A DNA stretch of 41,321 nucleotides from IMG/VR virus record IMGVR_UViG_3300044712_002646, positions 1 through 41,321 of that record. One strand, written 5' to 3'. This DNA comes from a virus. Numbering within the stretch: position 1 is the stretch's first letter; every line of letters starts with the position of its first letter. Below the pieces are notes generated by a model that saw nothing but the letters and a program-made list of their open reading frames with translations, was not told the origin of the DNA and searched no databases. Position numbers and translations under genes: made by a program. Positions 29,471 through 41,321 of the stretch are shown piece by piece.

Positions 29471-30063
29471 GCCGACCTCTCGTTAACCCGATGAATTCTG
29501 GCGATGCGCGGCACGCGCACCAGGCGCGCCCAATCATCGTCGCCGCTGTCAAAGCTGGCCGCCAGGCCGCCCAGGGCGACAACGCAAATCAGGGCGAGCG
29601 CCCCGGCAACCCGGCGCGTTCTTCCTGGGAGGCGGGTAGCTGCGAGCGCGTCATCCACGCCCTCGCCCTGGTCAGGTGCCACTGGCCCAAATGGGCGTGC
29701 AGCCAGGCCAGAATGTGCCGCGACTTTTCTTTCAGCTTTTTCACGGATCAGATCCCTTTTGATGGCCCCGGCTTCTGCTTCCAGCCGTTCCAGGCGGCGC
29801 TCCAAACTGCGCTCGCTTTCGGCCAAAGCTGGCGCGAAAACGAATTCCAAAAACTCGACGCCGCACCATTCGACCAACGCCACCAGATGGCGACCGCATG
29901 GCCAGTTGCCCTGGCGGATCGATCGTGCCGTGCGCAGGTCGATGCCGCCCAGCTTGCGAGCGACGGTCTTTTCGGAATGCGGCGCCAGCCATTCGCGCAG
30001 CCGCTCGCCCACCGGATGGTGGGGGCCGACGCTGGCGTGCAAAAGGCTGGCATTCAGCGACAT
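29467..30063 (-). CDS. HTH, coiled-coil and membrane-tail protein
   Basis: The 198-residue product has an HTH-like N-terminus (EWLAPHSEKTVARKLGGIDL, then RTARSIRQGNWPCGRHLVA). A coiled coil follows (about 83-112: ERSLERRLERLEAEAGAIKR), then one hydrophobic segment (about 153-170: VAGALALICVVALGGLAA). A membrane-tethered DNA-binding protein is a possible reading. GGGGG precedes the ATG. Confidence 0.7.
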   Translation of the reverse strand: MSLNASLLHASVGPHHPVGERLREWLAPHSEKTVARKLGGIDLRTARSIRQGNWPCGRHLVALVEWCGVEFLEFVFAPALAESERSLERRLERLEAEAGAIKRDLIREKAERKVAAHSGLAARPFGPVAPDQGEGVDDALAATRLPGRTRRVAGALALICVVALGGLAASFDSGDDDWARLVRVPRIARIHRVNERSA

Positions 30064-30098
30064 GGATTTGCCCCCGTCGCCGCCGCATGATTGGCAAC

Positions 30099-30344
30099 AT
30101 GAAAAACGAACCCACGCCCGAACGAAAGACCCTGGCCAGCCGCGCGCAGACCGCGCTTGGCAATCTCCTGACCGCGCTGGAAGCGTCGGCGCTCGAGACC
30201 GGCGGGCAGGTAAATCACCAAGCGCTGGCGCAGGCGAAGACCGAACGGGCGACGCTTCGCAAGCTGCTGAACGGCAAGGGCAAGGCTATGCCGCATCAGG
30301 CACCCCCTGGGTCTCGCCCGCTGGCGGGGGATTCTCGGCCATGA
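30099..30344 (+). CDS. Possible opposite-strand ORF in the early region
   Basis: This 81-residue frame lies in a 222-nt gap between minus-strand genes. Its product (MKNEPTPERKTLASRAQTAL, then EASALETGGQVNHQALAQAK and on) has normal, helix-rich composition, unlike antisense frames. It lacks a clear ribosome site and its last 59 nt overlap the Cro-like gene in antisense. It may be real or a chance frame; a second in-frame ATG lies at 30087. Confidence 0.35.
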   Translation: MKNEPTPERKTLASRAQTALGNLLTALEASALETGGQVNHQALAQAKTERATLRKLLNGKGKAMPHQAPPGSRPLAGDSRP

Positions 30345-30510
30345 AACGGCGAACACGATCAACCGTCGCCAGGGTTACGTCTCGACCATCGCGCAGCCGA
30401 AACACAAAGTTCGGATTTCCGCAGGCCTGGCGGCCAAAAACAGTTGCCGTCATGCTGGACTGGACCAGATACGTTTCGATGTCCGAAAGGAACTGAGATT
30501 GCGTTGTCAT
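30286..30510 (-). CDS. Cro-like small DNA-binding protein
   Basis: The 74-residue protein reads FLSDIETYLVQSSMTATVFG, RQACGNPNFVFRLRDGRDV, then TLATVDRVRRFMAEN. The pattern FG-x(4)-GNPNFV-x-xLR-x-GR recurs in small alphaproteobacterial HTH proteins. It is the first gene of the early operon. Its ATG lies only 10 nt after the proposed -10 box, so the transcript is almost leaderless. A Cro-type role at the lysogeny switch is inferred from position. Confidence 0.75.
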   Translation of the reverse strand: MTTQSQFLSDIETYLVQSSMTATVFGRQACGNPNFVFRLRDGRDVTLATVDRVRRFMAENPPPAGETQGVPDAA

Positions 30511-30519
30511 GACGACAGA

Positions 30520-30565
30520 GTAATAGCCAATCGGCTATCGTGTCAATAGCCAATGATATATTGGC
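30520..30565 (-). promoter_or_regulatory. Early promoter with clustered operator half-sites
   Basis: On the minus strand, TTGACA (30546-30541) and TATTAC (30525-30520, spacer 15; a TTACTC at spacer 17 is an alternative) form the promoter for the early operon. Half-sites GGCTAT/ATAGCC occur three times across it (GGCTAT, ATAGCC, GGCTAT). A further pair GCCAAT-GATAT-ATTGGC (30549-30565) lies towards the divergent repressor gene. The same 34-nt block recurs at 32499-32532. Confidence 0.75.
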
Positions 30566-30595
30566 ACAATTCACATCGAAATATGAAAATATGCC

Positions 30596-31078
30596 ATGGA
30601 AAACAAAAAACTTAGTGCCGACCGCCAACGCCTTACCGACCTCATGGCCGAACGAGGCACTGACCCCGCCAACACATCGCGCGCCATTGGGCGCTCGCAT
30701 TCATATCTTTGGAAATTTCTTACGCAACAAACACCCAAGCGCCTTTCCGAAGAAGTTAGAGAATTACTAGGCCGACACTTCCACGTTGACCCGGACATGT
30801 TTCGCCCCGGCCCCTACCACCCCCGGCCACAGGCCGCAGCACATGCCCCCGAGCCACAACCGCAACCCCCACAATTCACCGCTGACGATCTGCTTGAGAA
30901 CGCGCTTGATCTTGTAGAGCGGGCGATTCAACGCCACCACACCCCCATGCCGCCATCCATGATCGCCTATCTGGTCAAGGGCATCTGCAACCTGGCGATC
31001 AGTGGAAATCTGGAAAGTGAGGAAACGCAAACCGGCGCACATTTAAATAAATTTCCGACAACATCCCGATCAAAATAG
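30596..31078 (+). CDS. CI-like prophage repressor candidate (XRE HTH)
   Basis: The 160-residue protein has an N-terminal HTH (RLTDLMAERGTDPANTSRAI, then GRSHSYLWKFL), a Pro/Gln-rich linker (about 75-100) and a helical C-terminal part (FTADDLLENALDLVERAIQR). It is divergent from the Cro-like gene and separated from it by the operator cluster, the standard layout of a lysogeny switch. No S24 peptidase domain is seen, so induction would not use self-cleavage of the LexA type. Confidence 0.7.
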   Translation: MENKKLSADRQRLTDLMAERGTDPANTSRAIGRSHSYLWKFLTQQTPKRLSEEVRELLGRHFHVDPDMFRPGPYHPRPQAAAHAPEPQPQPPQFTADDLLENALDLVERAIQRHHTPMPPSMIAYLVKGICNLAISGNLESEETQTGAHLNKFPTTSRSK

Positions 31079-31268
31079 TGCAAAAGCGCAACTCGAAAGA
31101 TTCGCCGCCTGCGAATGATCAGCTAACAGAGTCATTTTTATTGTTTTTTATGAAACAACATTGACAGAAGTTCATTGATAACCGAATGATTGTATGAACG
31201 TCCATGACAAAACAAACAATGGCAGGCCTGATCGCTTGCAACACTCTTTCCCGCGACAAGGCTTAACA

Positions 31269-31487
31269 ATGATTGATGAACGAAAAATTTGGAAAAGCGT
31301 TTCCCGCCGCTTTGGCTCCAACGACAACAGCAAGGCGCCAGGGCTTTGTCTGCTGCGTACCACAGCGGATTTCGATTGCCCGCATTTGGCGCAAGCCAGC
31401 CAGAATCTGGGGCTTAGCGACCGCGCCTTGGCTGCGCCCGTGATTGATCGTGATGTGCTTGCAAACCGCAAAAATCCTCGCTCTTAG
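31269..31487 (+). CDS. Doubtful small ORF before the nuclease
   Basis: A 72-residue frame (MIDERKIWKSVSRRFGSNDN and on) begins after AAGG and overlaps the nuclease start by about 35 nt. I do not recognise it. The interval 31079-31452 otherwise holds only a TTGACA (31161-31166) without a good -10 partner, and a short 6-bp inverted repeat after the repressor gene (ATTCGC/GCGAAT, 31100-31116). Confidence 0.25.
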   Translation: MIDERKIWKSVSRRFGSNDNSKAPGLCLLRTTADFDCPHLAQASQNLGLSDRALAAPVIDRDVLANRKNPRS

Positions 31488-31947
31488 CTGGCTTGTTTTG
31501 TCACTCACGCCCGCGCCTGCGCAGGCCGGGGAAATCTTGGGTCGCGCACGGGTGATCGATGGCGATACGCTGGACATCAAGGGCCAACGCATCCGCCTTG
31601 AAGGCATCGACGCGCCGGAATTGCACCAGACATGCAGCGACAAAGGGCGCGTCTGGGCTTGCGGTTTTGTCTCGGCCAAGCATCTGCGCCGCATGGTTAA
31701 GGGAAAGACCGTGGCCTGTATCGCCCATGCGCAGGATCGCTATGGCCGCTGGCTGGCCACCTGCACCGTTGATGGCATTGACATCAGCCAGGCAATGGTG
31801 GCCAATGGCCTTGCTCTGGCCTATCGAAAATATTCAGATCAATATGTTGACGAAGAAGAATCGGCAAAGAAAGCCGGGATCGGCATCTGGAATAGCGAAT
31901 TTGAAAGGCCCGAAGATTGGCGGCACGCCGAAAAACAGGCGCGCTAG
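31453..31947 (+). CDS. Secreted thermonuclease-family nuclease (SNase-like)
   Basis: The 164-residue product has a signal peptide (hydrophobic ILALSWLVLSLTPAPAQA, cleavage after AQA) followed by an SNase fold: ARVIDGDTLDIKG, RIRLEGIDAPEL, and DRYGRWLATC. The catalytic Arg and Glu of RLEGIDAPE and the Arg of DRYGR are present. It would hydrolyse nucleic acids in the periplasm or outside. As a prophage cargo gene it may protect against incoming DNA or recycle nucleotides. Confidence 0.88.
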   Translation: MCLQTAKILALSWLVLSLTPAPAQAGEILGRARVIDGDTLDIKGQRIRLEGIDAPELHQTCSDKGRVWACGFVSAKHLRRMVKGKTVACIAHAQDRYGRWLATCTVDGIDISQAMVANGLALAYRKYSDQYVDEEESAKKAGIGIWNSEFERPEDWRHAEKQAR

Positions 31948-32423
31948 AATCCATCCCAAACCGTAACTAACTCGCCAGCAGTTTCTGTATTCAGCACAAA
32001 TTTATAGACCAGCCTTGTGTCGATATCCGACGTTCCTTTCGGGCCGCATGCAACCTTAAACACGTTACCCATGGGCGAAAGCCCCTTGCGACTGACGTAA
32101 TTCACCTCGGGGCACACATAGCCAAAGCGGTGGATGGCGTCGCGCAACTCCCGCTTTAGCTTCGGCGTCAAATCAACCCGGTTCGACGGTGCCTGATTGC
32201 TCTTGGTTACCGGCTTTTCAGGCAACGGAGCGGGAGATTGGGTAGGCGCGGCAGAATCGCTTGCGCCGCACGCGCGCAGCGATAAAAGGGCAATTCCAAA
32301 AATTAAACACCCGCCGAAAAACTGCGCGATGACGCCAAAGCGCTGCCCACCACAATGCGGGCACTTATTCGCCGTTTCAGCAAAATCCTTTCCACAATGC
32401 TTGCACGGCTTCAGATTTGACAT
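31944..32423 (-). CDS. Zinc-ribbon membrane protein
   Basis: From the ATG at 32423 (AGGGGG upstream) the 159-residue product has an N-terminal zinc ribbon (CKHCGKDF, CPHCGG), a membrane segment (about 32-52) and a Ser/Pro linker. An extracytoplasmic C-terminal domain (LTPKLKRELRDAIHRFGYVC and on) follows. It converges on the nuclease with a 4-nt overlap of the ends and points away from the DGR unit. Unknown function; may act at the envelope of the lysogen. Confidence 0.75.
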   Translation of the reverse strand: MSNLKPCKHCGKDFAETANKCPHCGGQRFGVIAQFFGGCLIFGIALLSLRACGASDSAAPTQSPAPLPEKPVTKSNQAPSNRVDLTPKLKRELRDAIHRFGYVCPEVNYVSRKGLSPMGNVFKVACGPKGTSDIDTRLVYKFVLNTETAGELVTVWDGF

Positions 32424-32498
32424 CAACACCCCCTTGGATTGCGAAACCAAACACGTTCACAACATTAGCTAAAAACAAACTACGGCGGAAATAACTTA

Positions 32499-32532
32499 TT
32501 GGCTATTGACACGATAGCCTTTTGGCTATTAT
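32499..32532 (+). promoter_or_regulatory. Promoter-operator of the DGR unit, copy of the early promoter
   Basis: TTGACA (32506-32511) and TATTAT (32527-32532, spacer 15) lie in a block that matches the minus strand of 30521-30554 at 32 of 34 positions. The block includes GGCTATTGACACGATAGCC and TTGGCTATTA. The half-sites GGCTAT, ATAGCC, GGCTAT are all kept. This places the DGR targets and probably all downstream genes under the same regulator as replication. Confidence 0.75.
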
Positions 32533-32594
32533 CCTCCCCCTCACAGCCACACCGGCTGTCGCGCTGGCCACCCCCTGAACGGCGCGTTCACCCA

Positions 32595-32634
32595 GGCCCG
32601 GCGCGCAGCGATTCCCCGATTCACGCGCCGGGCC
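32595..32634 (+). promoter_or_regulatory. Stable hairpin in the 5' leader of DGR target 1
   Basis: GGCCCGGCGCG (32595-32605) and CGCGCCGGGCC (32624-32634) form a perfect 11-bp stem with an 18-nt loop. It ends 18 nt before the start codon, just upstream of the ribosome site (GAAGAGGG, 32640-32647). It could influence translation or mRNA stability; no T-run follows, so it is not an intrinsic terminator. Confidence 0.5.
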
Positions 32635-32652
32635 GACCTGAAGAGGGACGCC

Positions 32653-33117
32653 ATGAACCAGACCGCCACCGCCCCCATTTCCACCGCCGATCTGCCCGAC
32701 CTCGGCCAGCCCTTCCAGGGCGGCATTCTGGCTGCCGTCGGCTACCGCCTCGACGGCACGAAATACGCCATCGCTACCGCCAAGAAAGACGACGACGCCA
32801 AAATGACTTGGGACGAGGCCATGGCCTTCTGTGCCTCGCTGGGCGAGGGCTGGTCGCTGCCCACATTGGAAAACGGCGCACTGCTGCGCGCCAACTGCAT
32901 GCCCGCGACTTATGTCGATTTTCCGGCGCAAACGCAGATTGAAGCCTTCAAGGAAGGCGGCCCGCAAGCCTTCGAAACCGACGAATGGTATTGGCTGCAA
33001 GAACAGGCCAGCGCCCACGACGCCTGGTGCCAGAACTTCTACTACGGCAATCAGTACTACCTCAACAAGTACGGTCGCTGCCGTGTGAGGGCTGTCCGCC
33101 AAATCGACCTCATTTAA
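32653..33117 (+). CDS. DGR target protein 1 (C-type-lectin-like, DUF1566/Lcl-like)
   Basis: The 154-residue protein opens with DLGQPFQGG and DGTKYAIATA, has GEGWSLPTLENGALLRAN in the middle, and ends in a VR-encoded segment (ASAHDAWCQNFYYGNQYYLN, then KYGRCRVRAVR). The LP-T-E-L and RCRVRAVR features match the DUF1566/Lcl C-type-lectin-like fold, the usual scaffold of DGR targets. There is no signal peptide. It is the first gene of the plus-strand unit. Confidence 0.9.
   Translation: MNQTATAPISTADLPDLGQPFQGGILAAVGYRLDGTKYAIATAKKDDDAKMTWDEAMAFCASLGEGWSLPTLENGALLRANCMPATYVDFPAQTQIEAFKEGGPQAFETDEWYWLQEQASAHDAWCQNFYYGNQYYLNKYGRCRVRAVRQIDLI
33006..33099 (+). repeat. Variable repeat VR1
   Basis: This 94-nt copy aligns to the template repeat 36633-36726 without gaps. 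It differs at 10 positions, all adenines in the template (A to C, G or T), all in AAY codons. The last 25 nt, through CTGTCCGC, are identical to the template. Confidence 0.96.
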
Positions 33118-33131
33118 CCATTCACCTATTT

Positions 33132-33152
33132 CCCGCGCGCTTGGCGCGCGGG
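33132..33152 (+). other. Post-VR1 hairpin (retrohoming target element)
   Basis: CCCGCGCGC and GCGCGCGGG form a 9-bp stem with loop TTG, 32 nt after VR1. It is preceded by the conserved block TTTAACCATTCACCTATTT. No T-run follows, so it is not a terminator. Confidence 0.8.
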
Positions 33153-33166
33153 GCGCCGAGGAACGC

Positions 33167-33382
33167 ATGCGCGAATATTTACAACACACAGTTGACGTTT
33201 TAGCCCGCGAAATGGCTAGGCACATCGTGCGTGTAATTTCCAGCCGCATGCAAATTCCGGCAGCGCCACGAAAGGCAGAATTATCACGGCACACGCCCCA
33301 CCAGGGCAGGCGTGAAACAGATCGCCGCAAGCGCCAGTCAGACGCCCAACATCGCGCCGCCATTACGGAGAATCTGATATGA
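33167..33382 (+). CDS. Small basic hypothetical protein
   Basis: The 71-residue product (MREYLQHTVDVLAREMARHI and on) is basic in its second half (RRETDRRKRQSD). GAGGAA precedes the ATG at good spacing, and the stop overlaps the next start (ATGA), supporting it as real. Unknown function. Confidence 0.6.
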   Translation: MREYLQHTVDVLAREMARHIVRVISSRMQIPAAPRKAELSRHTPHQGRRETDRRKRQSDAQHRAAITENLI

Positions 33383-33750
33383 ACCTATCAAAACACCCGA
33401 CCGATCTTGCCGGCGCGTTCAACGCAATTCAGGCCGAAATATCCAGGCTGGCCGAACAGGCCGTCGATGAACATCAGCGCCTAAAGCTCGGGCGCCAGCA
33501 AGCAACCTATGCCGGAATTCTAGCCGCACGATCCGGCATCGATATTCCGATGCCACCGCCATTCAGCGACTATCCCGCGCTGATTGATGCTTGGGGAAGC
33601 GGCATTGAAAAAGGCCTATCGGCCACCATTCCAGAAATCCGCCAATCGATCAATGCCCGGCTTGTGGTCAAGCGCCATTTACTCCAGCGCCTCGCCAGAA
33701 CCTACGCCGATCATGTTCACGAACACCTTGAAAAGGACAACGCCGCATGA
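33379..33750 (+). CDS. Hypothetical helical protein
   Basis: The 123-residue protein (LAGAFNAIQAEISRLAEQAV and on) appears all-helical with no membrane segment. It overlaps both neighbours by 4 nt (ATGA), so it is translated together with the GapR-like protein. No family recognised. Confidence 0.7.
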   Translation: MNLSKHPTDLAGAFNAIQAEISRLAEQAVDEHQRLKLGRQQATYAGILAARSGIDIPMPPPFSDYPALIDAWGSGIEKGLSATIPEIRQSINARLVVKRHLLQRLARTYADHVHEHLEKDNAA

Positions 33751-34082
33751 GCGACGATAAAAACCACGGCCAGCCCGGCCATAATTCAGGCATCACGGGC
33801 GAGCGCCTGAAAAGCTTTATCGAGCGCGTCGAGCGCCTTGAGGAAGAGAAGGCGGCCCTGGCCGCCGACATCAAGGACGTTTATGCCGAGGCCAAATCGG
33901 CAGGCTTCGACGTCAAAATCATGCGCCAGGTTGTGCGCATTCGCAAGCAAGACCCGCAGGACAGACGCGAGCAGGAAAAACTGCTTGAACTCTACATGTC
34001 GGCATTGGGCATGTTGGCCGACACGCCGTTGGGCGAAAGCGCGCTTGAACGGGCAGGCTTGAAGAAAGGCGACAGCGAATGA
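33747..34082 (+). CDS. GapR-like DNA-binding protein (DUF2312)
   Basis: The 111-residue protein contains the DUF2312 core: GERLKSFIERVERLEEEKAA, LAADIKDVYAEAKSAGFDVK, then IMRQVVRIRKQDPQDR. Host GapR in alphaproteobacteria binds overtwisted AT-rich DNA and supports topoisomerase action at replication and transcription. A phage copy could bind the phage DNA during replication. It sits inside the DGR unit between target 1 and target 2. Confidence 0.88.
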   Translation: MSDDKNHGQPGHNSGITGERLKSFIERVERLEEEKAALAADIKDVYAEAKSAGFDVKIMRQVVRIRKQDPQDRREQEKLLELYMSALGMLADTPLGESALERAGLKKGDSE

Positions 34083-34720
34083 CCTGGGTCGAAACCGCCA
34101 GCGGCAGACGCGTTGACCTGATGAACCCAACGCCCGAAGATATCTGCCCGCGCGACATCGCGCACCACCTGGCCATCTTGAATCGTTTTTCAGGCGCCAC
34201 GCACGCGCCGCTTTCTATCGCCCAACATTCGCTGCTTGTGCTTGAAATCGCAGAATCCACGATACGCAACATGGATTTGGAACCGTCCATTTCCACGGCG
34301 ATCCGCCGCTATGCGCTGTTACATGACGCGCATGAAGCCTACAAGGGTGATGACAGCTCGCCAAAAAAGCGTGCGCTCAGGAATTTATCTGATGGCAACA
34401 GCCCGATCAGCATGCTGGAAATAGCGCTGGATCAGGCCATCTTTTCGCGCTTCGCGCTGGCCTGGCCCACCCCAAAGGCGTGGGCCGACATTGTGAAAAA
34501 GGCCGATCTGATCGCCCTGGCCACCGAGCGGCGCGACCTAATGAACAGCAAGCAATCCTGGCCATGCCTTCGCGGCATCACCCCATGGCCGCAGATTGTG
34601 AAACCATTGCATTGGTCGGCGGCGGAAGAGGCGTTTCACGCACGCCTTCTGCAATTGATCGACGCAGCCCATGAAGTGCGCTTTCAAACCGCGCTTTCCC
34701 TAAAATCCAAAGCCGCATGA
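34079..34720 (+). CDS. HD-domain phosphohydrolase (YfbR/5'-nucleotidase-like)
   Basis: The 213-residue protein has the HD metal site: His50 in IAQHS, His82-Asp83 in LLHDAHE, and Asp143 in KKADLIALATE. The FSGATHAPLSIAQHS opening is typical of phage HD proteins related to deoxynucleotidases. It may adjust the nucleotide pool during phage replication. It overlaps both neighbours. Confidence 0.85.
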   Translation: MTWVETASGRRVDLMNPTPEDICPRDIAHHLAILNRFSGATHAPLSIAQHSLLVLEIAESTIRNMDLEPSISTAIRRYALLHDAHEAYKGDDSSPKKRALRNLSDGNSPISMLEIALDQAIFSRFALAWPTPKAWADIVKKADLIALATERRDLMNSKQSWPCLRGITPWPQIVKPLHWSAAEEAFHARLLQLIDAAHEVRFQTALSLKSKAA

Positions 34721-34731
34721 AGGAAAAAACA

Positions 34732-35409
34732 ATGACCAAAGCCAAACCGAAGACCAGTGCGAAGAAGCCTGCCGCCAAGAAGGCAGCAACGGCCAAGAAA
34801 CCGGTGGCGCGCAAGCCTGCAAAAAACGCCCGCACAGCGGCGAAGCCTCGCCCGCTCGCCTATGCCCGCATGAAGGCAGAGAAATGCCCCACCGAATTGG
34901 GGACGTTGTTTCAGGGTGGGTTCTACATGGGCCGACAGATGGGCCCGGACGGCAACACCTACGCATTGTTCACCGCGCCGAAGGCGCTGGGCGAGGGCGT
35001 CTTCCAGTGGAAGAAATCTAATACCCGCACCGAAGGGGCCTGGGATCTCTTTGACGGGTTGCGGAATACGGAAGCGCTGAACAACGCCGACCATCCGGCG
35101 GCGCAGTTTTGCCGGTCGTTGGACATCGGCGGCAAGCGCGACTGGCATCTACCCAGCCTGGAAGACATGCAGTTGCTGCGCCGCAATTTCATGCCGCGCC
35201 ACGATTCTAACTGGAACCCCGGCCAGACCAAGATCGAAGAATTTAAGGCAGGCGGACCGGAGGCTTTCGAGGCTGACTGGCATTGGACCAGCACCCAGGC
35301 CAGCGCCAGCAGCGCCTGGTGCCAGGGCTTCTACCTCGGCCTTCAGTACTACATCTACAAGGGCTATCGCTGCCGTGTGAGGGCTGTCCGCAAAATCATC
35401 CTAATTTAA
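34732..35409 (+). CDS. DGR target protein 2, with a Lys/Ala/Pro-rich basic tail
   Basis: From the ATG at 34732 (AAGGA 7 nt upstream) the product is 225 residues. The first 44 are a histone-H1-like repeat of KPAAKKAATAKKPVARKP type. The DUF1566/Lcl-like domain follows (LGTLFQGG, RDWHLPSLEDMQLLR, HWTSTQASASSAWCQGFYLG), ending in the VR segment and RCRVRAVRKIILI. No signal peptide. The tail resembles nucleic-acid-binding tails and is unlike known phage adhesins. An ATG at 34717 overlaps the previous stop. Confidence 0.88.
   Translation: MTKAKPKTSAKKPAAKKAATAKKPVARKPAKNARTAAKPRPLAYARMKAEKCPTELGTLFQGGFYMGRQMGPDGNTYALFTAPKALGEGVFQWKKSNTRTEGAWDLFDGLRNTEALNNADHPAAQFCRSLDIGGKRDWHLPSLEDMQLLRRNFMPRHDSNWNPGQTKIEEFKAGGPEAFEADWHWTSTQASASSAWCQGFYLGLQYYIYKGYRCRVRAVRKIILI
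35298..35391 (+). repeat. Variable repeat VR2
   Basis: This 94-nt copy aligns to the template without gaps and differs at 15 positions. All are template adenines in AAY codons; all other positions are identical. Confidence 0.96.
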
Positions 35410-35423
35410 CCATTCACTTATTT

Positions 35424-35444
35424 GCCGACCGCTGAGCGGTCGGC
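35424..35444 (+). other. Post-VR2 hairpin (retrohoming target element)
   Basis: GCCGACCGC and GCGGTCGGC form a 9-bp stem with loop TGA, 32 nt after VR2, preceded by the block TTTAACCATTCACTTATTT. Compared with the other two hairpins the stem bases differ but the pairing is kept, which is evidence for structural conservation. Confidence 0.85.
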
Positions 35445-35475
35445 GCAGCGCCTCAACCAAACGAAAGGAATCACC

Positions 35476-36033
35476 ATGAACCAAGTTGCCTCCACCGAAA
35501 CGCCGCTTCCCGAGATCGGCGCGCCCTTCCAGGGCGGATTCTTTGCCGGAATCATGTTCCAGCAGGACGGATCGAAATATGCCTTGATCGTCGCCCCCAA
35601 GGCCGAGGGCGAAGCGCCCGAGAAATTACCCTTCACGAACGGCGTTAGCAGTGAAACCGCTGCCCGCTCGTTGTGGGACGGTCAGGCCAATAATCAGTCC
35701 CTGCTGGACGGCGACCACCCGGCGGCGCAGTTCTGCGCCAACCTCAAGATCAGCGGGTTCGAGGATTGGTATCTGCCCAGCAAGGACGAACTCTATCTGA
35801 TCGCCAGCCGCTTCCTGCCCGCCGACGACGGTGACAACTGGAACCCGGCCATCACCGCTTTCGACGCTTTTAAGCAAGGCGGACCGGAGGCGTTCGGGCG
35901 CGCCTTATATTGGTCCAGCACTGAGGCCAGCGCCTTCACCGCCTGGTGCCAGGGCTTCAGCGGCGGCGGTCAGCTCTACTACCTCAAGGACTTTCGCTGC
36001 CGTGTGAGGGCTGTCCGCAAATATCCTCTTTAA
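35476..36033 (+). CDS. DGR target protein 3 (C-type-lectin-like, DUF1566/Lcl-like)
   Basis: From the ATG at 35476 (AAGGAAT upstream) the product is 185 residues. It has IGAPFQGGFFAGIMFQQDG, FEDWYLPSKDELYLIASRFL, and LYWSSTEASAFTAWCQGF, a clear DUF1566-type YWSS pattern, followed by the VR segment and RCRVRAVRKYPL. No signal peptide. It lies 66 nt after target 2 and 60 nt before avd. Confidence 0.92.
   Translation: MNQVASTETPLPEIGAPFQGGFFAGIMFQQDGSKYALIVAPKAEGEAPEKLPFTNGVSSETAARSLWDGQANNQSLLDGDHPAAQFCANLKISGFEDWYLPSKDELYLIASRFLPADDGDNWNPAITAFDAFKQGGPEAFGRALYWSSTEASAFTAWCQGFSGGGQLYYLKDFRCRVRAVRKYPL
35925..36018 (+). repeat. Variable repeat VR3
   Basis: This 94-nt copy aligns to the template without gaps and differs at 18 positions. 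All are template adenines in AAY codons. Identity extends 4 nt beyond the repeat (AAAT), further than in VR1 and VR2. Confidence 0.96.
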
Positions 36034-36046
36034 CCATTCACCTATT

Positions 36047-36069
36047 CCCCGCGCGCTCAGCGCGCGGGG
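36047..36069 (+). other. Post-VR3 hairpin (retrohoming target element)
   Basis: CCCCGCGCGC and GCGCGCGGGG form a 10-bp stem with loop TCA, 28 nt after VR3, preceded by TTTAACCATTCACCTATT. No such hairpin follows the template repeat. Confidence 0.8.
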
Positions 36070-36093
36070 TGTCCTGTCCGACGGAAATTTTGC

Positions 36094-36447
36094 ATGACGC
36101 TCGCGACCGACCTGCCGATCTACAAGCCGACCTACGATTTGATTCTGTTGGTGATGAATCTCACCCGGAACTATCCCAAGTCGTTTCGGCATGGCCTGGC
36201 GCGGGACATCGATTTGGGGGCGCAGCAACTGGCCACGATGATTTTTCAGGCCAACTGCACCCACGACAAGGTTCCGGTTATCGAAGGCCTGCGGAAGAAG
36301 CTTTCCGTTCTCCGCCTGCAACTAAGGCTTTCGAAGGATCTGCGTCTGATTTCTGCCGGACAATTTGGGGCCACGGTGGAGCTAACCACCGCCATCGGAA
36401 AGCAGGCGACCGGTTGGCTAAAATCGGCGAAACAGAGGGGCGCCTGA
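36094..36447 (+). CDS. avd: Avd-like DGR accessory protein
   Basis: The 117-residue protein is all-helical and basic: PIYKPTYDLILLVMNLTRNY, PKSFRHGLARDIDL, then VIEGLRKKLSVLRLQLRLSK. These match the four-helix-bundle Avd proteins, which bind the reverse transcriptase and template RNA in DGRs. It precedes the template repeat and reverse transcriptase, the normal order. The ATG is preceded by GGAAA. Confidence 0.88.
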   Translation: MTLATDLPIYKPTYDLILLVMNLTRNYPKSFRHGLARDIDLGAQQLATMIFQANCTHDKVPVIEGLRKKLSVLRLQLRLSKDLRLISAGQFGATVELTTAIGKQATGWLKSAKQRGA

Positions 36448-36632
36448 TGCGGTACGGTTACGGCCATGCCGCCTGCGCGCATGATTTGGTCGGGGTAGCG
36501 GCGGCACTGCCTGCCGTCGCTCCAGGTGCCAACGGGATACGGCGATCTGCTCCGCGCGCGTCCCGGCACGGCTTGGCGGGTGTCGATGTACCAAACAATC
36601 GCCCGCCCGGCTTGTACACCCCCGACATGACA
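36448..36632 (+). ncRNA. Non-coding leader of the DGR template RNA
   Basis: No frame of coding character is seen between avd and the template repeat on either strand. The 185-nt interval is GC-rich and has a possible stem GGGTGT (36578-36583)/ACACCC (36616-36621) just before the repeat. It probably forms the 5' part of the template RNA. Its boundaries are unknown. Confidence 0.4.
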
Positions 36633-36726
36633 GGCCAGCGCCAACAACGCCTGGTGCCAGAACTTCAACAACGGCAATCAGAACTACAACAACAAGAACA
36701 ATCGCTGCCGTGTGAGGGCTGTCCGC
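36633..36726 (+). repeat. DGR template repeat (TR)
   Basis: This 94-nt repeat is the presumed invariant donor: read in the target frame it contains 11 AAC/AAT codons, which the VRs replace. Its last 25 nt (from TCGCTGCC to CTGTCCGC) have one adenine and are identical in all copies, as expected of the IMH region where mutagenic homing begins. The RT start codon follows 2 nt after it. Confidence 0.95.
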
Positions 36727-36728
36727 AA

Positions 36729-37829
36729 ATGAAAACCCATCGCTCAGAAATCACCGTGGCCCAACTTTTTGAAGCCTATTTCGATTGCCGTCGCCACAAG
36801 CGCAACAGCGCCTCGGCCCTGGCATTCGAGGTCGATCTTGAACGCAACCTGATGGACCTGCACGAGGAATTGATTTCCGGCACCTGGATGCCCAGGCCAG
36901 CCACCACCTTCGTCATCACGCGCCCGAAACCGCGCGAGGTTTGGGCCGCCGATTTTCGCGACCGCATCGTGCATCATCTGGTTTACGCGGCCATCGCACC
37001 CAGGATCGAGGCCGCCTTCATCGCCGATTCCTGCGCCTGCATCAAGGGGCGCGGCACGCTGTACGGCGCCAATCGGTTGGCCGGTCATTTGCGCAGCGCC
37101 ACCCAGAATTGGAGCAAGCCGGTTTTTTACCTGAAAGCCGACATCGCCAATTTCTTTGTCTCGATCCGCCGCGCCGATCTGTTCGTCATGCTGGCGGCCA
37201 AGCTGCGCGATAAAACGATGCCGGATCTGTGCCGCAAGCTGGTTTTCCAGGACGTGAAACGCGATTGCATCGTCAAGGGCAGTCAGAGATCATTCTTGCA
37301 GGTGCCGCGCCACAAAAGCCTGTTCCATGCGCCCGAGGGCAATGGCCTGCCGATCGGCAATCTGTCCAGCCAATTCTTCGCCAACGTCTATCTGGACGGA
37401 CTGGATCAGTTCATCAAGCGCCAGTTGGGCTTTCACCATTACGTGCGCTATGTCGACGACATGGTGCTGATCGACGCCGATCCCCAGCGCCTGTTGGCCG
37501 CTGCCAACGCCATTCGCGACCACCTTACCAGCATCGGATTGAAACTGGCCGAACACAAAACATTCGTCGCCCCCGCCGACAAGGGCGTCGATTTTGTTGG
37601 CCATGTTATCCGGCCATTTCGCAGTCAGGCCAGAGCGCGCACCCACCGCGCCGCCCTGGCCAGGATTGCCGCCACGGTCCAGGCAGACCTGCCCACCACT
37701 GTCACGTCGTATCTGGGCCTGTTCAAGCACAGCGGCAGCCGGGCGCAGCGCGAACAGATCGCCCGCGCCGCCATGCAGCGCGGCCTTTATGTCGAAACCG
37801 ATTTATCGAAAGCGAGGAAAAGAAGATGA
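36729..37829 (+). CDS. DGR reverse transcriptase
   Basis: The 366-residue product has the RT palm motifs: Asp138 in LKADIANFF, the DGR-type motif LPIGNLSSQFF (207-217; GxxxSQ replaces the QG of retroviral enzymes), and the catalytic YVDD (241-244). An open frame extends far upstream through target 3, but the true start is the ATG at 36729. The best ribosome site (GAGGG, 36714-36718) lies inside the template repeat. It would copy the template RNA and misread adenines. Confidence 0.97.
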   Translation: MKTHRSEITVAQLFEAYFDCRRHKRNSASALAFEVDLERNLMDLHEELISGTWMPRPATTFVITRPKPREVWAADFRDRIVHHLVYAAIAPRIEAAFIADSCACIKGRGTLYGANRLAGHLRSATQNWSKPVFYLKADIANFFVSIRRADLFVMLAAKLRDKTMPDLCRKLVFQDVKRDCIVKGSQRSFLQVPRHKSLFHAPEGNGLPIGNLSSQFFANVYLDGLDQFIKRQLGFHHYVRYVDDMVLIDADPQRLLAAANAIRDHLTSIGLKLAEHKTFVAPADKGVDFVGHVIRPFRSQARARTHRAALARIAATVQADLPTTVTSYLGLFKHSGSRAQREQIARAAMQRGLYVETDLSKARKRR

Positions 37830-38293
37830 CCAGAACTTGGCTGCCTCAAGACTATCAGGACGAAGCGATCCCACCGCCTCGAAAGTCACCGGACGACTGG
37901 ATTGCCATCCTTCCCGGTGATTCCTATGGGCTTGCGCCCGCCTACGAAGATGGCGCCGACCCCCGCATTCTCAATGACGGAGATATTGTCCTGTTCGATT
38001 GGACTGAAAACCACGGCAGAGCCATCTTCACCGTGAACGAAGACCTCTCATGGTCGATTGATTGCGATGAACCAAAAGCGCCAGATGGCGGGTATATGCT
38101 GGTCGCCATTTACGGCGAAGCTATCGATACAATGGCGGAGGGTTTGGAATCTTTCGCCAATGCATTCATTGACAACTTGTCTCCAAGCGACCTGCCTTAC
38201 TCTGATACCGTTATTTTCTATAGCTGGTCATTAAAGGCGACAAAGTTTGAATTTCGGCAAGGGCACTTTCATCCTTTGGAGGCCGCCCAATGA
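37826..38293 (+). CDS. Hypothetical acidic protein after the DGR
   Basis: The 155-residue protein overlaps the RT stop (ATGA) and the next start. It is acidic, with DDWIAILPGDSYGLAPAYED and an S24-like pattern (DGADPRILNDGDIVLFDWTE, then GYMLVAIYGEAI), reminiscent of the beta fold of LexA/S24 proteins, but no catalytic Ser-Lys pair is obvious. Unknown function. Confidence 0.7.
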   Translation: MTRTWLPQDYQDEAIPPPRKSPDDWIAILPGDSYGLAPAYEDGADPRILNDGDIVLFDWTENHGRAIFTVNEDLSWSIDCDEPKAPDGGYMLVAIYGEAIDTMAEGLESFANAFIDNLSPSDLPYSDTVIFYSWSLKATKFEFRQGHFHPLEAAQ

Positions 38294-39279
38294 CCCGCAA
38301 AACCGCGATCTCATATGCTGACGCAAGCTGGCCGGTCGTGACTGGATGCTCAAAAGTTGGCGAAGGCTGCCGCAACTGCTATGCCGCGTTTCAGGCCGCA
38401 GGCAGGCTGCGCCATCATCCGCATTATGTCGGCCTGGCTGGGTTTGATTCCAAGGGCGTCGCACAATGGACAGGCAAAGTCCGCTGCAACGAAGACGCGT
38501 TGGAAGAACCGATGAAGCGCAAAAAGCCCACCACCTATTTCGTGGCGCCACGCGGCGACCTGTTTCACGAGCAGGTTCCGGATGATTTTCTGGACAAGGT
38601 TTTTGATGTCATGGGCCGATGCCCGCAGCATCGCTTTCTTGTCTTCACCAAGCGGTCAGAGCGGCGACTGGAATACATCGTCAACGCCCATCGTCACATC
38701 GACCTCGAGGAATATTCATGGCCTCTGCCCAACGTCTGGCAGATCACCAGCGTGTGGGATCAGGAATCGGCCAACCGGCTAATCCCGCCGACGCTGTACA
38801 CACCCGCCGCCCTTCGCGGTGTTTCCATCGAGCCGCTGCTCGGGCCGATTGATTTGGCGCGCTTAACCGAACGCATTACTGAAGCAGATGGGACTTGCGT
38901 TCAACATATCGACGCTTTGAACGGAACATTAAGCGACGATGAAAACGGCGTGATCGACGGGGCCTTTGAGCCGGGAAAAGAACCGCGCCTCGACTGGGTG
39001 ATTGTCGGCGGAGAAAGCGGCAAGAACGCCCGACCGATGCACCCAGATTGGGCACGATCACTGCGCGATCAATGCGCCGAGGCTGGCGTACCATTCTATT
39101 TCAAACAGTGGGGCGAGTTTTTCCCTGGCGAATGTCTTCATGACAAAAGAGATTTCCCTGATCGCGAAGGCGTACCATTCTGCGTCCTCCAAACAGGAAA
39201 CCAGGTAATGTATCGCGTCGGCAAGGCCAAGGCAGGCCACCTTCTCGACGGCAAGGAATATCTGGGGGTGCCAAAATGA
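38290..39279 (+). CDS. Phage Gp37/Gp68 family protein (DUF5131)
   Basis: The 329-residue protein opens with ISYADASWPVVTGCSKVGEG followed by CRNCYA (Cys20, Cys27, Cys30), the hallmark of the family. It continues with RGDLFHEQVPDDFLDKVFDV, FLVFTKRSERRLEY and VIVGGESGKNARPMHPDWAR. The fold is related to radical-SAM barrels, although the Cys spacing is not the standard CxxxCxxC. It is common in phages, function unproven. Confidence 0.9.
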   Translation: MTRKTAISYADASWPVVTGCSKVGEGCRNCYAAFQAAGRLRHHPHYVGLAGFDSKGVAQWTGKVRCNEDALEEPMKRKKPTTYFVAPRGDLFHEQVPDDFLDKVFDVMGRCPQHRFLVFTKRSERRLEYIVNAHRHIDLEEYSWPLPNVWQITSVWDQESANRLIPPTLYTPAALRGVSIEPLLGPIDLARLTERITEADGTCVQHIDALNGTLSDDENGVIDGAFEPGKEPRLDWVIVGGESGKNARPMHPDWARSLRDQCAEAGVPFYFKQWGEFFPGECLHDKRDFPDREGVPFCVLQTGNQVMYRVGKAKAGHLLDGKEYLGVPK

Positions 39280-39488
39280 AGGCATCTGACATGCCAAGCC
39301 ATTACTACTTGATTTCAAACACGCGATCGATCGTTGCAAAATCGACGTATCGAGACAAGCCGAATTGGGCATTGGTGAAAGACATGTTCGGGTGCGGGGC
39401 AACAAAGGCGCATGAGATTTGCCACCAGAGCAACATCGATCCAGACGACACGGTTGTTCGCTTCTTCATGAGGGGGAAAGCACCATGA
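39276..39488 (+). CDS. Hypothetical 70-residue protein
   Basis: The small protein (SHYYLISNTRSIVAKSTYRD, then DMFGCGATKAHEICHQSNID) overlaps both neighbours by 4 nt, which supports it as real. The FGCGATKAHEIC part could be a short helical nucleic-acid-binding motif, but I do not recognise a family. Confidence 0.7.
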   Translation: MKASDMPSHYYLISNTRSIVAKSTYRDKPNWALVKDMFGCGATKAHEICHQSNIDPDDTVVRFFMRGKAP

Positions 39489-40186
39489 CCGACCGCCTCA
39501 CAATTTTCAGCGCCCCGATGGTCCGCGCTTTGCTCGACGGCAGAAAGATCATGACGCGCAGGATCGTTAAGAACGTGCCTCCGATGCCATCAGAAAACGA
39601 TTTTGTTCATGAGCCGCGCCACGAACGCCCCTATCTCGATTCATACTGCGGCAAAGAAAAGACAAAAGCCAATCCTCGCGGCATGTCCGATCAATGGTGC
39701 TGGTGGACCGTCGACGACAGGCCAGGCGCTCTGTTCAAAGTGCCGTATGTTCCTGGTGACCGCCTGTGGGTGCGGGAAACTTTTTACTGTGATCATTACA
39801 ATTTCCCAAAAGCATCCGTCGATTCGATGCGTGATTTGCTTGATTTCAGAGCAACACACGACTGCTCAAATTATGAAGCGGGGTGCCCATGCGACCATAA
39901 AAACTGGAAGCCATCCATCCACATGCCGCGCTGGGCATCGCGCCTGACGCTCGAAGTGACGGGCGTCAATGTCGAGCGGTTGCAGGATATCAGCGAAGCC
40001 GACGCCGTGAGGGAAGGCGTTTATTGCTTCCGCGATTCAGATGATGACGACAGAAGTCCTCGCGATCTTTTTGCCGCGCTCTGGCGGCATCTACACGGCC
40101 CCGATTCATGGGATGCCAACCCATTCGTTTCCGCAATTAGTTTTACCGTCCACAAATGCAATATCGACAAGATGGGGACACCATGA
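39485..40186 (+). CDS. ASCH-like phage protein
   Basis: The 233-residue protein begins TIFSAPMVRALLDGRKIMTR and has YVPGDRLWVRETF, MPRWASRLTLEVTGVNVERL, and QDISEADAVREGV, the features of ASCH/PUA-like proteins that bind RNA or modified nucleotides. The ATG at 39485 overlaps the previous stop. Common in phage accessory regions; molecular role unknown. Confidence 0.85.
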   Translation: MTDRLTIFSAPMVRALLDGRKIMTRRIVKNVPPMPSENDFVHEPRHERPYLDSYCGKEKTKANPRGMSDQWCWWTVDDRPGALFKVPYVPGDRLWVRETFYCDHYNFPKASVDSMRDLLDFRATHDCSNYEAGCPCDHKNWKPSIHMPRWASRLTLEVTGVNVERLQDISEADAVREGVYCFRDSDDDDRSPRDLFAALWRHLHGPDSWDANPFVSAISFTVHKCNIDKMGTP

Positions 40187-40488
40187 ACGCCGCGCCGCCG
40201 CTTTCCGTCGAACAACTGGCCCAGCGATGGGAATGCAGCAGCCAGCATATCCGGGACATGATACGAAATCAGGAGTTGCAGGCCTTTCGGATCGGTCGTT
40301 TAATCCGAGTTCCAGTCGCCGAGGTCGAAAGGATCGAGCAATGCACGTCGTTAATTATCGAGGAAAATGGTGCGCCAGAGCCACCATTGACGGAAAGCGG
40401 CGGCGCTGGAGCCTTGGCAACCTCGATGCCACGAAAGAAAATCGTGGGGCTGCCGAGCGGGCGCTGCGTGACCTTGAACGCTCCCTAG
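40183..40488 (+). CDS. xis: Excisionase-like HTH protein
   Basis: The 101-residue protein has a MerR/HTH_17-type domain: SVEQLAQRWECSSQHIRDMI, then LQAFRIGRLIRVPVAEVERI. Small proteins of this type next to a tyrosine integrase are usually excisionases (recombination directionality factors). The second half (residues about 53-101) lies in a different frame inside the integrase gene, an overlap of 148 nt. The ATG overlaps the previous stop. Confidence 0.75.
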   Translation: MNAAPPLSVEQLAQRWECSSQHIRDMIRNQELQAFRIGRLIRVPVAEVERIEQCTSLIIEENGAPEPPLTESGGAGALATSMPRKKIVGLPSGRCVTLNAP

Positions 40489-41321
40489 CCGCCCCGGCAG
40501 GAACAACCTGCGACGATATTTTCAATGCCTACAAAGCCGACAGCCAGGCGCTGGACAAAGCGCGCATGGAAAATTCCTGGAAGGCACTTCGCCCCCACTT
40601 CGGCCACCTCAGGGCTGATCAAATCACCCGCGATATCTGCCGCGAATATACCGCCCAGCGCCGCCAGTCTGGCCGACAGGACGGAACGATCAGACGTGAA
40701 CTGATCACGCTGCGCGCAGCACTTCGCTGGCATGATAAAAATTCTCCAGCCGTTTTCGACATGCCCGCCAGCCCGCCGCCACAAGAACGCTGGCTGACGC
40801 GCGATGAATTTACGCGCTTGCTGGACGCCTCGACCATCACCTATCACCTGACGCTGTTTCTGCACCTGGCTATTGGCACGGCGGGACGAAAAGACGCACT
40901 GCTGAACCTGACATGGCATCAGGTTCGTTTCGATTCAGGGGAGATTTGGCTCGGAAGAAAAGCGGGCGGAAAAAACCGCGCTACCGTGCCTATGACAAAA
41001 ACGCTGCGCGCCGTGCTAACGCAAGCGCGGGAATTAGCCCAAACCGAATATGTGGTCGAATTTGCAGGCCGACGCGTGGGATCTATCAAAACGGCTTTCA
41101 ACGCAGCGTGTCGTCGAGCGAAATTGGCCGACGTGACGCCGCACGTTTTGCGCCACACCGCCGCTGTCTGGATGGCAGGCGCAGGCGTTCCAATCAGCAA
41201 AATCAGCCAATATCTCGGGCACTCAGACAGCCGGGTGACTGAGCGGGTCTACGCACGCTACCAGCCCGGCCACCTGCAAGATGCCGCCGCAGCGCTGGAA
41301 ATAACCACCGGGCCGAGGTGA
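40341..41321 (+). CDS. int: Tyrosine-type phage integrase
   Basis: The 326-residue protein starts HVVNYRGKWCARATIDGKRR, an arm-binding N-terminus, followed by a SAM-like core-binding domain and the catalytic domain. Catalytic residues are Arg183 (TAGRKDAL), His268/Arg271 (HVLRHTA), His294 (LGHSDSR) and Tyr304 (ERVYARY). It ends at the window edge. The expected partner site is the tRNA 3' end, as seen at the left boundary. Confidence 0.95.
   Translation: MHVVNYRGKWCARATIDGKRRRWSLGNLDATKENRGAAERALRDLERSLAAPAGTTCDDIFNAYKADSQALDKARMENSWKALRPHFGHLRADQITRDICREYTAQRRQSGRQDGTIRRELITLRAALRWHDKNSPAVFDMPASPPPQERWLTRDEFTRLLDASTITYHLTLFLHLAIGTAGRKDALLNLTWHQVRFDSGEIWLGRKAGGKNRATVPMTKTLRAVLTQARELAQTEYVVEFAGRRVGSIKTAFNAACRRAKLADVTPHVLRHTAAVWMAGAGVPISKISQYLGHSDSRVTERVYARYQPGHLQDAAAALEITTGPR

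Follow-up and report, generated by a model that had tools for sequence, protein, structure and literature searches.

A three-target diversity-generating retroelement of a temperate phage and a long-range RNA helix that probably clamps its RT-15 leader to the template

In the diversity-generating retroelement (DGR) of Bordetella phage BPP-1, arranged as mtd-avd-TR-Sp-brt (TR, template repeat; Sp, spacer; brt, the reverse transcriptase gene), the target is a C-lectin-like protein and a hairpin stands behind its variable repeat (VR), as in the locus described here. Retron non-coding RNAs have the order a1-G-msr-msd-a2; a helix between a1 and a2 clamps the molecule and leaves an unpaired G behind a1, which primes through its 2'-OH, and copying begins beside a2; the product is a 2'-5' branched msDNA. 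The priming of DGR complementary DNA (cDNA) is known in detail essentially from BPP-1 alone, where the RNA responsible lies behind the template: the structured spacer that separates TR from brt recruits the reverse transcriptase (RT) together with Avd and primes cDNA synthesis (PMC12875486). Here we analyse a DGR in IMG/VR virus record IMGVR_UViG_3300044712_002646, positions 1 to 41,321 (the window, 41,321 nt). It shares with BPP-1 the order target, avd, TR, RT, the adenine-specific changes and a homologous RT. Whereas BPP-1 has its structured spacer between TR and brt, the window DGR has a structured RNA, RT-15, before the TR and no spacer. How general the BPP-1 scheme is can be tested directly in a widespread clade that has its structured RNA before the template, a helix with covariation support between this RNA and the template end, and TR/VR homology that stops at the helix. 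We consider it probable, from comparison of sequences, that the window DGR is of a functional type and belongs to a clade, found in temperate proteobacterial phages, in which the RT-15 leader is clamped to the TR by a long-range helix, a1/a2. The parts concerned are the following.

33003..33102, + strand: VR1, gap-free copy of the TR, mismatches confined to TR adenines
33119..33160, + strand: conserved stretch and 9-bp hairpin behind VR1
35296..35394, + strand: VR2, gap-free, 15 mismatches, all at TR adenines
35924..36022, + strand: VR3, gap-free, 18 mismatches, all at TR adenines
36094..36447, + strand: Avd, 117 amino acids (Pfam bAvd 8.5e-13; PHROG 'Avd protein of DGR' 8.4e-28)
36438..36632, + strand: RT-15 RNA (RF03018), the structured leader 5' of the template (cmscan E 9.5e-21, with 92 bits against a gathering score of 82)
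36482..36488, + strand: a1, pairs with the TR 3' edge; followed by the nearly invariant G36489, the putative branch point
36632..36726, + strand: TR, 95 nt with 30 adenines; alignments extend to 36630/36632-36729
36726..36732, + strand: a2, CAAAT(G)A at the TR 3' edge, overlapping the RT start codon and pairing with a1; TR/VR homology ends here
36729..37829, + strand: DGR RT, 366 amino acids (Pfam RVT_1, PF00078, 2.6e-16; PHROG RT family 1.8e-95)

The preliminary description had proposed a complete DGR with a DGR-type RT, an Avd-like protein and one template with three gap-free copies, and all of this stood. The RT carries the motifs LPIGNLSSQ and YVDD, starts with the ATG at 36729, has chain 8ub7 ('Reverse transcriptase', 1.3e-37) as its nearest solved relative and is homologous to BPP-1 brt (32.9% identity over 81%). 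It scored 49 bits with the NCBIfam retron model, against a cut-off of 235, and its best matches were DGR RTs. No solved structure was found for Avd by sequence search. Over the 95 nt of the TR at 36632-36726, the three VRs, all on the + strand like the TR, differ from it at 10, 15 and 18 positions (11, 15 and 18 in slightly longer alignments for VR1, VR2 and VR3). Since every mismatch is an A in the TR, the pattern cannot be due to chance; across the clade, 3158 of 3195 TR/VR mismatches likewise fall on A (119 TRs). The TR adenines lie mostly within AAC/AAT codons, so that changes in the VRs alter amino acids: in the target frame the TR reads ASANNAWCQNFNNGNQNYNNKNNRCRVRAVR, and the VRs read ASAHDAWCQNFYYGNQYYLNKYG.., ASASSAWCQGFYLGLQYYIYKGY.. 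and ASAFTAWCQGFSGGGQLYYLKDF... A conserved stretch and then a hairpin follow each window VR, with stems of 9, 9 and 10 bp; hairpins of at least 6 bp stand behind 54% of VRs versus 10.5% of random stretches. With its parts intact-looking, the element is confirmed, as far as its sequence can tell, as a complete DGR.

RT-15, matched over its full length, occupies the gap between avd and TR. The same place was found in 50 of 50 records (over the cut-off in 48), and in 47 of the 48 the 3' end of RT-15 lay no more than 8 nt from the TR start. Rfam names this family just 'RT-15 RNA', whereas here it appears as the leader of the TR with a long-range helix to the TR 3' edge. A search of the open literature for RT-15 and DGR together found no link between them, although the RT-15 source paper may already recognise one. 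Burkholderia phage Magia and Pseudomonas phages Cruim01 and LPPA56 belong to the same RT clade and also have short targets and a cassette upstream of an integrase gene. Lectin-fold targets are annotated in Magia, and in Cruim01 RT-15 is annotated just ahead of the RT gene; the three records are without a link between RT-15 and the DGR template, and the hosts differ. Relative to BPP-1, the template RNA of the clade would be a new variant.

The consensus a1, GAAUCUG, is an unpaired segment of RT-15 that is followed by the G and then by the RT-15 outer helix, and it is complementary to CAGAUUC at the TR 3' edge. The window has a compensated variant of this helix, AUUUG/CAAAU (36484-36488 with 36726-36730), which also forms in the single-sequence fold. 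When all registers of leader against 3' flank were scanned without bias in 114 loci, the a1/a2 register ranked first. Compensatory double changes occurred on 23-28 branches of the RT tree, depending on how ties were broken, versus 0-6 when the partner was slid by 1-4 columns, and the two best pairs reached P of 0.001 or less. Moreover, RNAalifold predicted a1/a2 unprompted, with core pair probabilities of 0.95-0.99.

For a further check of a1/a2, 107 additional non-redundant loci were fetched afterwards and aligned to the same columns. In these, the most variable pair was formed in 100/104 loci (as U-A, G-C or C-G) and the two innermost pairs in 105/105, and 12-15 compensatory changes were counted versus 0-1 in slid registers. 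The G after a1 was nearly invariant in both sets (113/114 and 104/105 loci). TR/VR identity was 97-100% as far as the C that pairs in a2 but fell to background within about 5 nt beyond, and the 5' edge of the homology is the RT-15 end. The copied region is thus bounded by RNA structure on either side. Together, these comparisons show a1/a2 to be a newly found long-range helix supported by covariation.

The clamp suggests how the template could be handled. A single transcript would bear avd, the RT-15 leader, the TR and the RT gene; after the leader folds, single-stranded a1 would pair with a2 and clamp the template between two structures. RT-Avd would then begin copying the TR beside a2, misread adenines and halt at the RT-15 fold, while the invariant G beside a1 would prime the cDNA as in retrons. 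The cDNA would finally replace the matching ends of the three target genes, in each of which a GC-rich 3' end free of mutation and the downstream hairpin serve as marks. We propose this priming here because the parts (a1, G, structured RNA, template, a2) are ordered as in retrons, in which an a1/a2 helix by analogy encloses structured RNA and template. Unlike in retrons, the window RT and Avd are of the DGR kind, and the product would be a mutagenic copy homing into genes. That the clade makes mutagenic cDNA in this retron-like manner, permuted relative to BPP-1, with RT-15 clamping the template 3' edge and the invariant G as primer, is a tentative proposal whose prospects we put just short of even. 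If true, it would tie DGRs to retrons by mechanism and account for an Rfam RNA that is so far an orphan. The arrangement of leader and helix would give RT-15 a function and offer a compact mutagenesis cassette.

Alternatively, the element could be an ordinary DGR of the BPP-1 kind, primed by RNA that lies 3' of the TR and is hidden in the RT coding sequence, while RT-15 merely stops the RT or stabilises the RNA and a1/a2 joins the TR ends. The homology of RT and Avd speaks for this view, and the closest studied DGR does prime from its 3' spacer (PMC12875486). However, the window TR abuts the RT start codon, which in fact overlaps the TR 3' edge (a correction to the earlier placement), and cmscan at E up to 1 found no match to Phage_DGR (RF03022) in window positions 30000-41321, although it placed RF03022 exactly between TR and brt in BPP-1. 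A spacer hidden in the RT gene is likewise unsupported, since the first 48 RT codons showed no extra synonymous constraint. Finally, 64 of 114 non-redundant loci (L014, L016-L021 and others) have no RT start codon near the TR except within it, and there the template seems to encode the RT N-terminus as well. We therefore regard BPP-1-like priming in this clade as unlikely. It is very unlikely that a1/a2 switches translation of the RT gene and has no part in cDNA priming, for even though the window a2 includes two bases of the RT start codon, that codon overlaps a2 in just 12/114 loci while the helix is kept in the rest and ends exactly where TR/VR homology ends.

Several points weigh against a clamped, retron-like template RNA. 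The core helix of the window itself has just 5 bp before a G-G mismatch, and the helix does not tell which nucleotide primes. The parsimony counts come from one FastTree tree and are less than a formal R-scape test, the RT-15 structure with its own helices is the one given by Rfam, and some chance is left that a spacer-like element lies inside the RT gene. Furthermore, no near-identical relative of the window phage was found, including in a search of viral contigs with the exact 24-nt TR 3' end, and the evidence from natural variation comes from relatives only; the closest by RT has 71% identity.

These relatives nevertheless provide a clear record of diversification, and the search for related cassettes that the preliminary description had suggested yielded multi-VR DGRs with VR diversity at A sites. 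Loci L054 and L123 have identical TRs and target genes 94-97% identical just upstream of the VRs, and the differences in their three VRs, 16, 15 and 13 in number, are confined to TR-A sites. Among 48 related pairs, differences affected 706 of 1383 A sites, compared with 86 of 3444 other sites. Non-A differences were found mostly where the TRs also differ, which is what renewal of VRs from the current TR would produce. Because the VRs of related phages differ almost exclusively at template A's, activity of the clade to which the window DGR belongs is well supported by sequence variation.

The view that three targets exceed the usual number did not hold. We scanned RT relatives from viral and genome contigs and counted VRs in the 96 non-redundant DGRs whose upstream sequence reached 6.5 kb or more: 9 had one VR, 58 two, 28 three and one four. 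Two or three targets per TR, and up to four, are thus the rule in the RT clade (87/96 with 2-4 VRs). Three are all the less exceptional since multi-VR DGRs have already been published: they were tabulated in 2012, including that of Magnetospirillum magneticum AMB-1 (PMC3521204), made up 28.6% of DGRs in 2019 (PMC6642488) and appear also in PMC10743442. Those in PMC3521204 (Table 2) and PMC6642488 similarly combine one TR with several paralogous targets, many with DUF1566, and do not differ in kind; in this respect the window DGR is another member of a known group. In the clade, targets group by position, the proximal, middle and distal ones belonging to lineages that are mostly separate. Recent target duplication was considered and rejected for the clade, as the nearest relative came from the same locus for just 10/199 targets; targets 1 and 2 of the window are more alike than most. 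Where the DGR cassette would lie, Pseudomonas phage Medea1 (L168) has two DUF1566 genes and no annotated RT, possibly the remains of a DGR that lost its RT.

The three target genes of the window are as follows.

32653..33117, + strand: target gene 1, 154 amino acids, Lcl_C/DUF1566, carrier of VR1 (Pfam Lcl_C 4.8e-8)
34717..35409, + strand: target gene 2, 230 amino acids, Lcl_C (Pfam 6.6e-9); alternative start ATG 34732
35422..36033, + strand: target gene 3, 203 amino acids (TTG 35422) or 185 (ATG 35476), Lcl_C (Pfam 4e-11)

The Lcl_C score of target 1, 33.7 bits, lies just below the curated cut-off of 34.9. Sequence search found no solved structure for a target protein. An AlphaFold model of target 3 (mean predicted local confidence, pLDDT, 89) has a C-lectin-like fold, and Foldseek gave the C-terminal domain of Legionella Lcl (8q4e) as its best solved match and tail-fibre ends among the viral ones. 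The VR thus lies at the C-terminus of a C-lectin-like target. As modelled, the targets appear to be short, free-standing, single-domain C-lectin-like proteins with a variable surface, which would bind ligands. The N-terminus of target 2 (34717-34870), about 50 residues long, is rich in Lys (13), Ala (15) and Pro (6); it resembles histone H1 tails, which is odd for a receptor-binding protein.

All three targets proposed for the cassette are present, but the cassette is not compact: target 1 is set apart, with VR1 and VR2 2.2 kb apart and three unrelated genes between targets 1 and 2. One gene between these targets encodes a GapR-like DNA-binding protein (33747-34082; Pfam 6e-36), which points to an alphaproteobacterial host. 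A plasmid search returned only short matches of about 70% identity, with DUF2312 (GapR-type) genes among the matches listed. The window is that of a temperate myophage, as had been stated, since genes for sheath, baseplate, tape measure, portal, terminase and replicative helicase were matched along with a tyrosine integrase. Ahead of target 1 lies a further predicted element.

32501..32535, + strand: predicted operator, a 19-bp inverted repeat that overlaps a promoter-like TTGACA site; mate at 30533-30551

The two predicted 19-bp operators (30533-30551 and 32501-32519) are mirror images with the sequence GGCTATTGACACGATAGCC, TTGACA inside, and are likely to represent a left/right pair of early promoters by analogy with phage lambda. 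Between them, the short gene 30596-31078 looks helix-turn-helix-like by eye and had no PHROG match. Target 1 follows the predicted early promoter with no gene in between, and all assigned genes from there to the integrase read rightward. We infer that the region is a repressor-controlled early operon with the cassette inside.

This setting leaves two readings of what the targets do. They may be virion tail tips, as Mtd is in BPP-1, with three copies conferring three receptor specificities, a reading to which we give nearly even weight. The C-lectin-like fold occurs at the ends of phage tail fibres, DUF1566 genes adjoin tail genes in PMBT3 and QHHSV-1, and viral DGR targets in several clades are mostly tail proteins (PMC8144416). 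In BPP-1, however, the one target gene lies directly behind bbp9/bbp10 on the same strand, whereas the window has three short, free-standing targets in an apparent early operon, away from tail genes, which makes a tail-tip role uncertain. Indeed, in records with a structural marker (n=26, window included), the RT was on the strand opposite the portal, terminase or sheath gene in 24 and at least 14 kb from structural genes in every one; including terminase family PF03237, matched in few records, gained little. Gene position thus disfavours a tail operon, while fold relatives favour tails.

It is also quite conceivable, if not quite probable, that the targets have their place not in the virion but in the host cell or on its surface, at an early stage of infection or upon induction, where they might for instance counter host defence or rival phages. 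Target 1 heads the genes behind the predicted repressor-controlled promoter, the Lys-rich tail of target 2 resembles a nucleic-acid-binding protein, and in relatives the cassette lies near recombination and integrase genes, an integrase following within 8 kb downstream on the same strand in 22 of 38 integrase-bearing records. Early genes can still encode virion proteins, though, and promoter-like sites in the region are no more numerous than in shuffled sequence. The early-operon place of several short targets raises the question of what besides tail tips phages diversify.

Besides the tyrosine integrase at its right end, the window encodes a serine-recombinase integrase at its left end (1-1605; PHROG integrase 1.7e-111), and the pair may represent either two integration systems or a neighbouring element.

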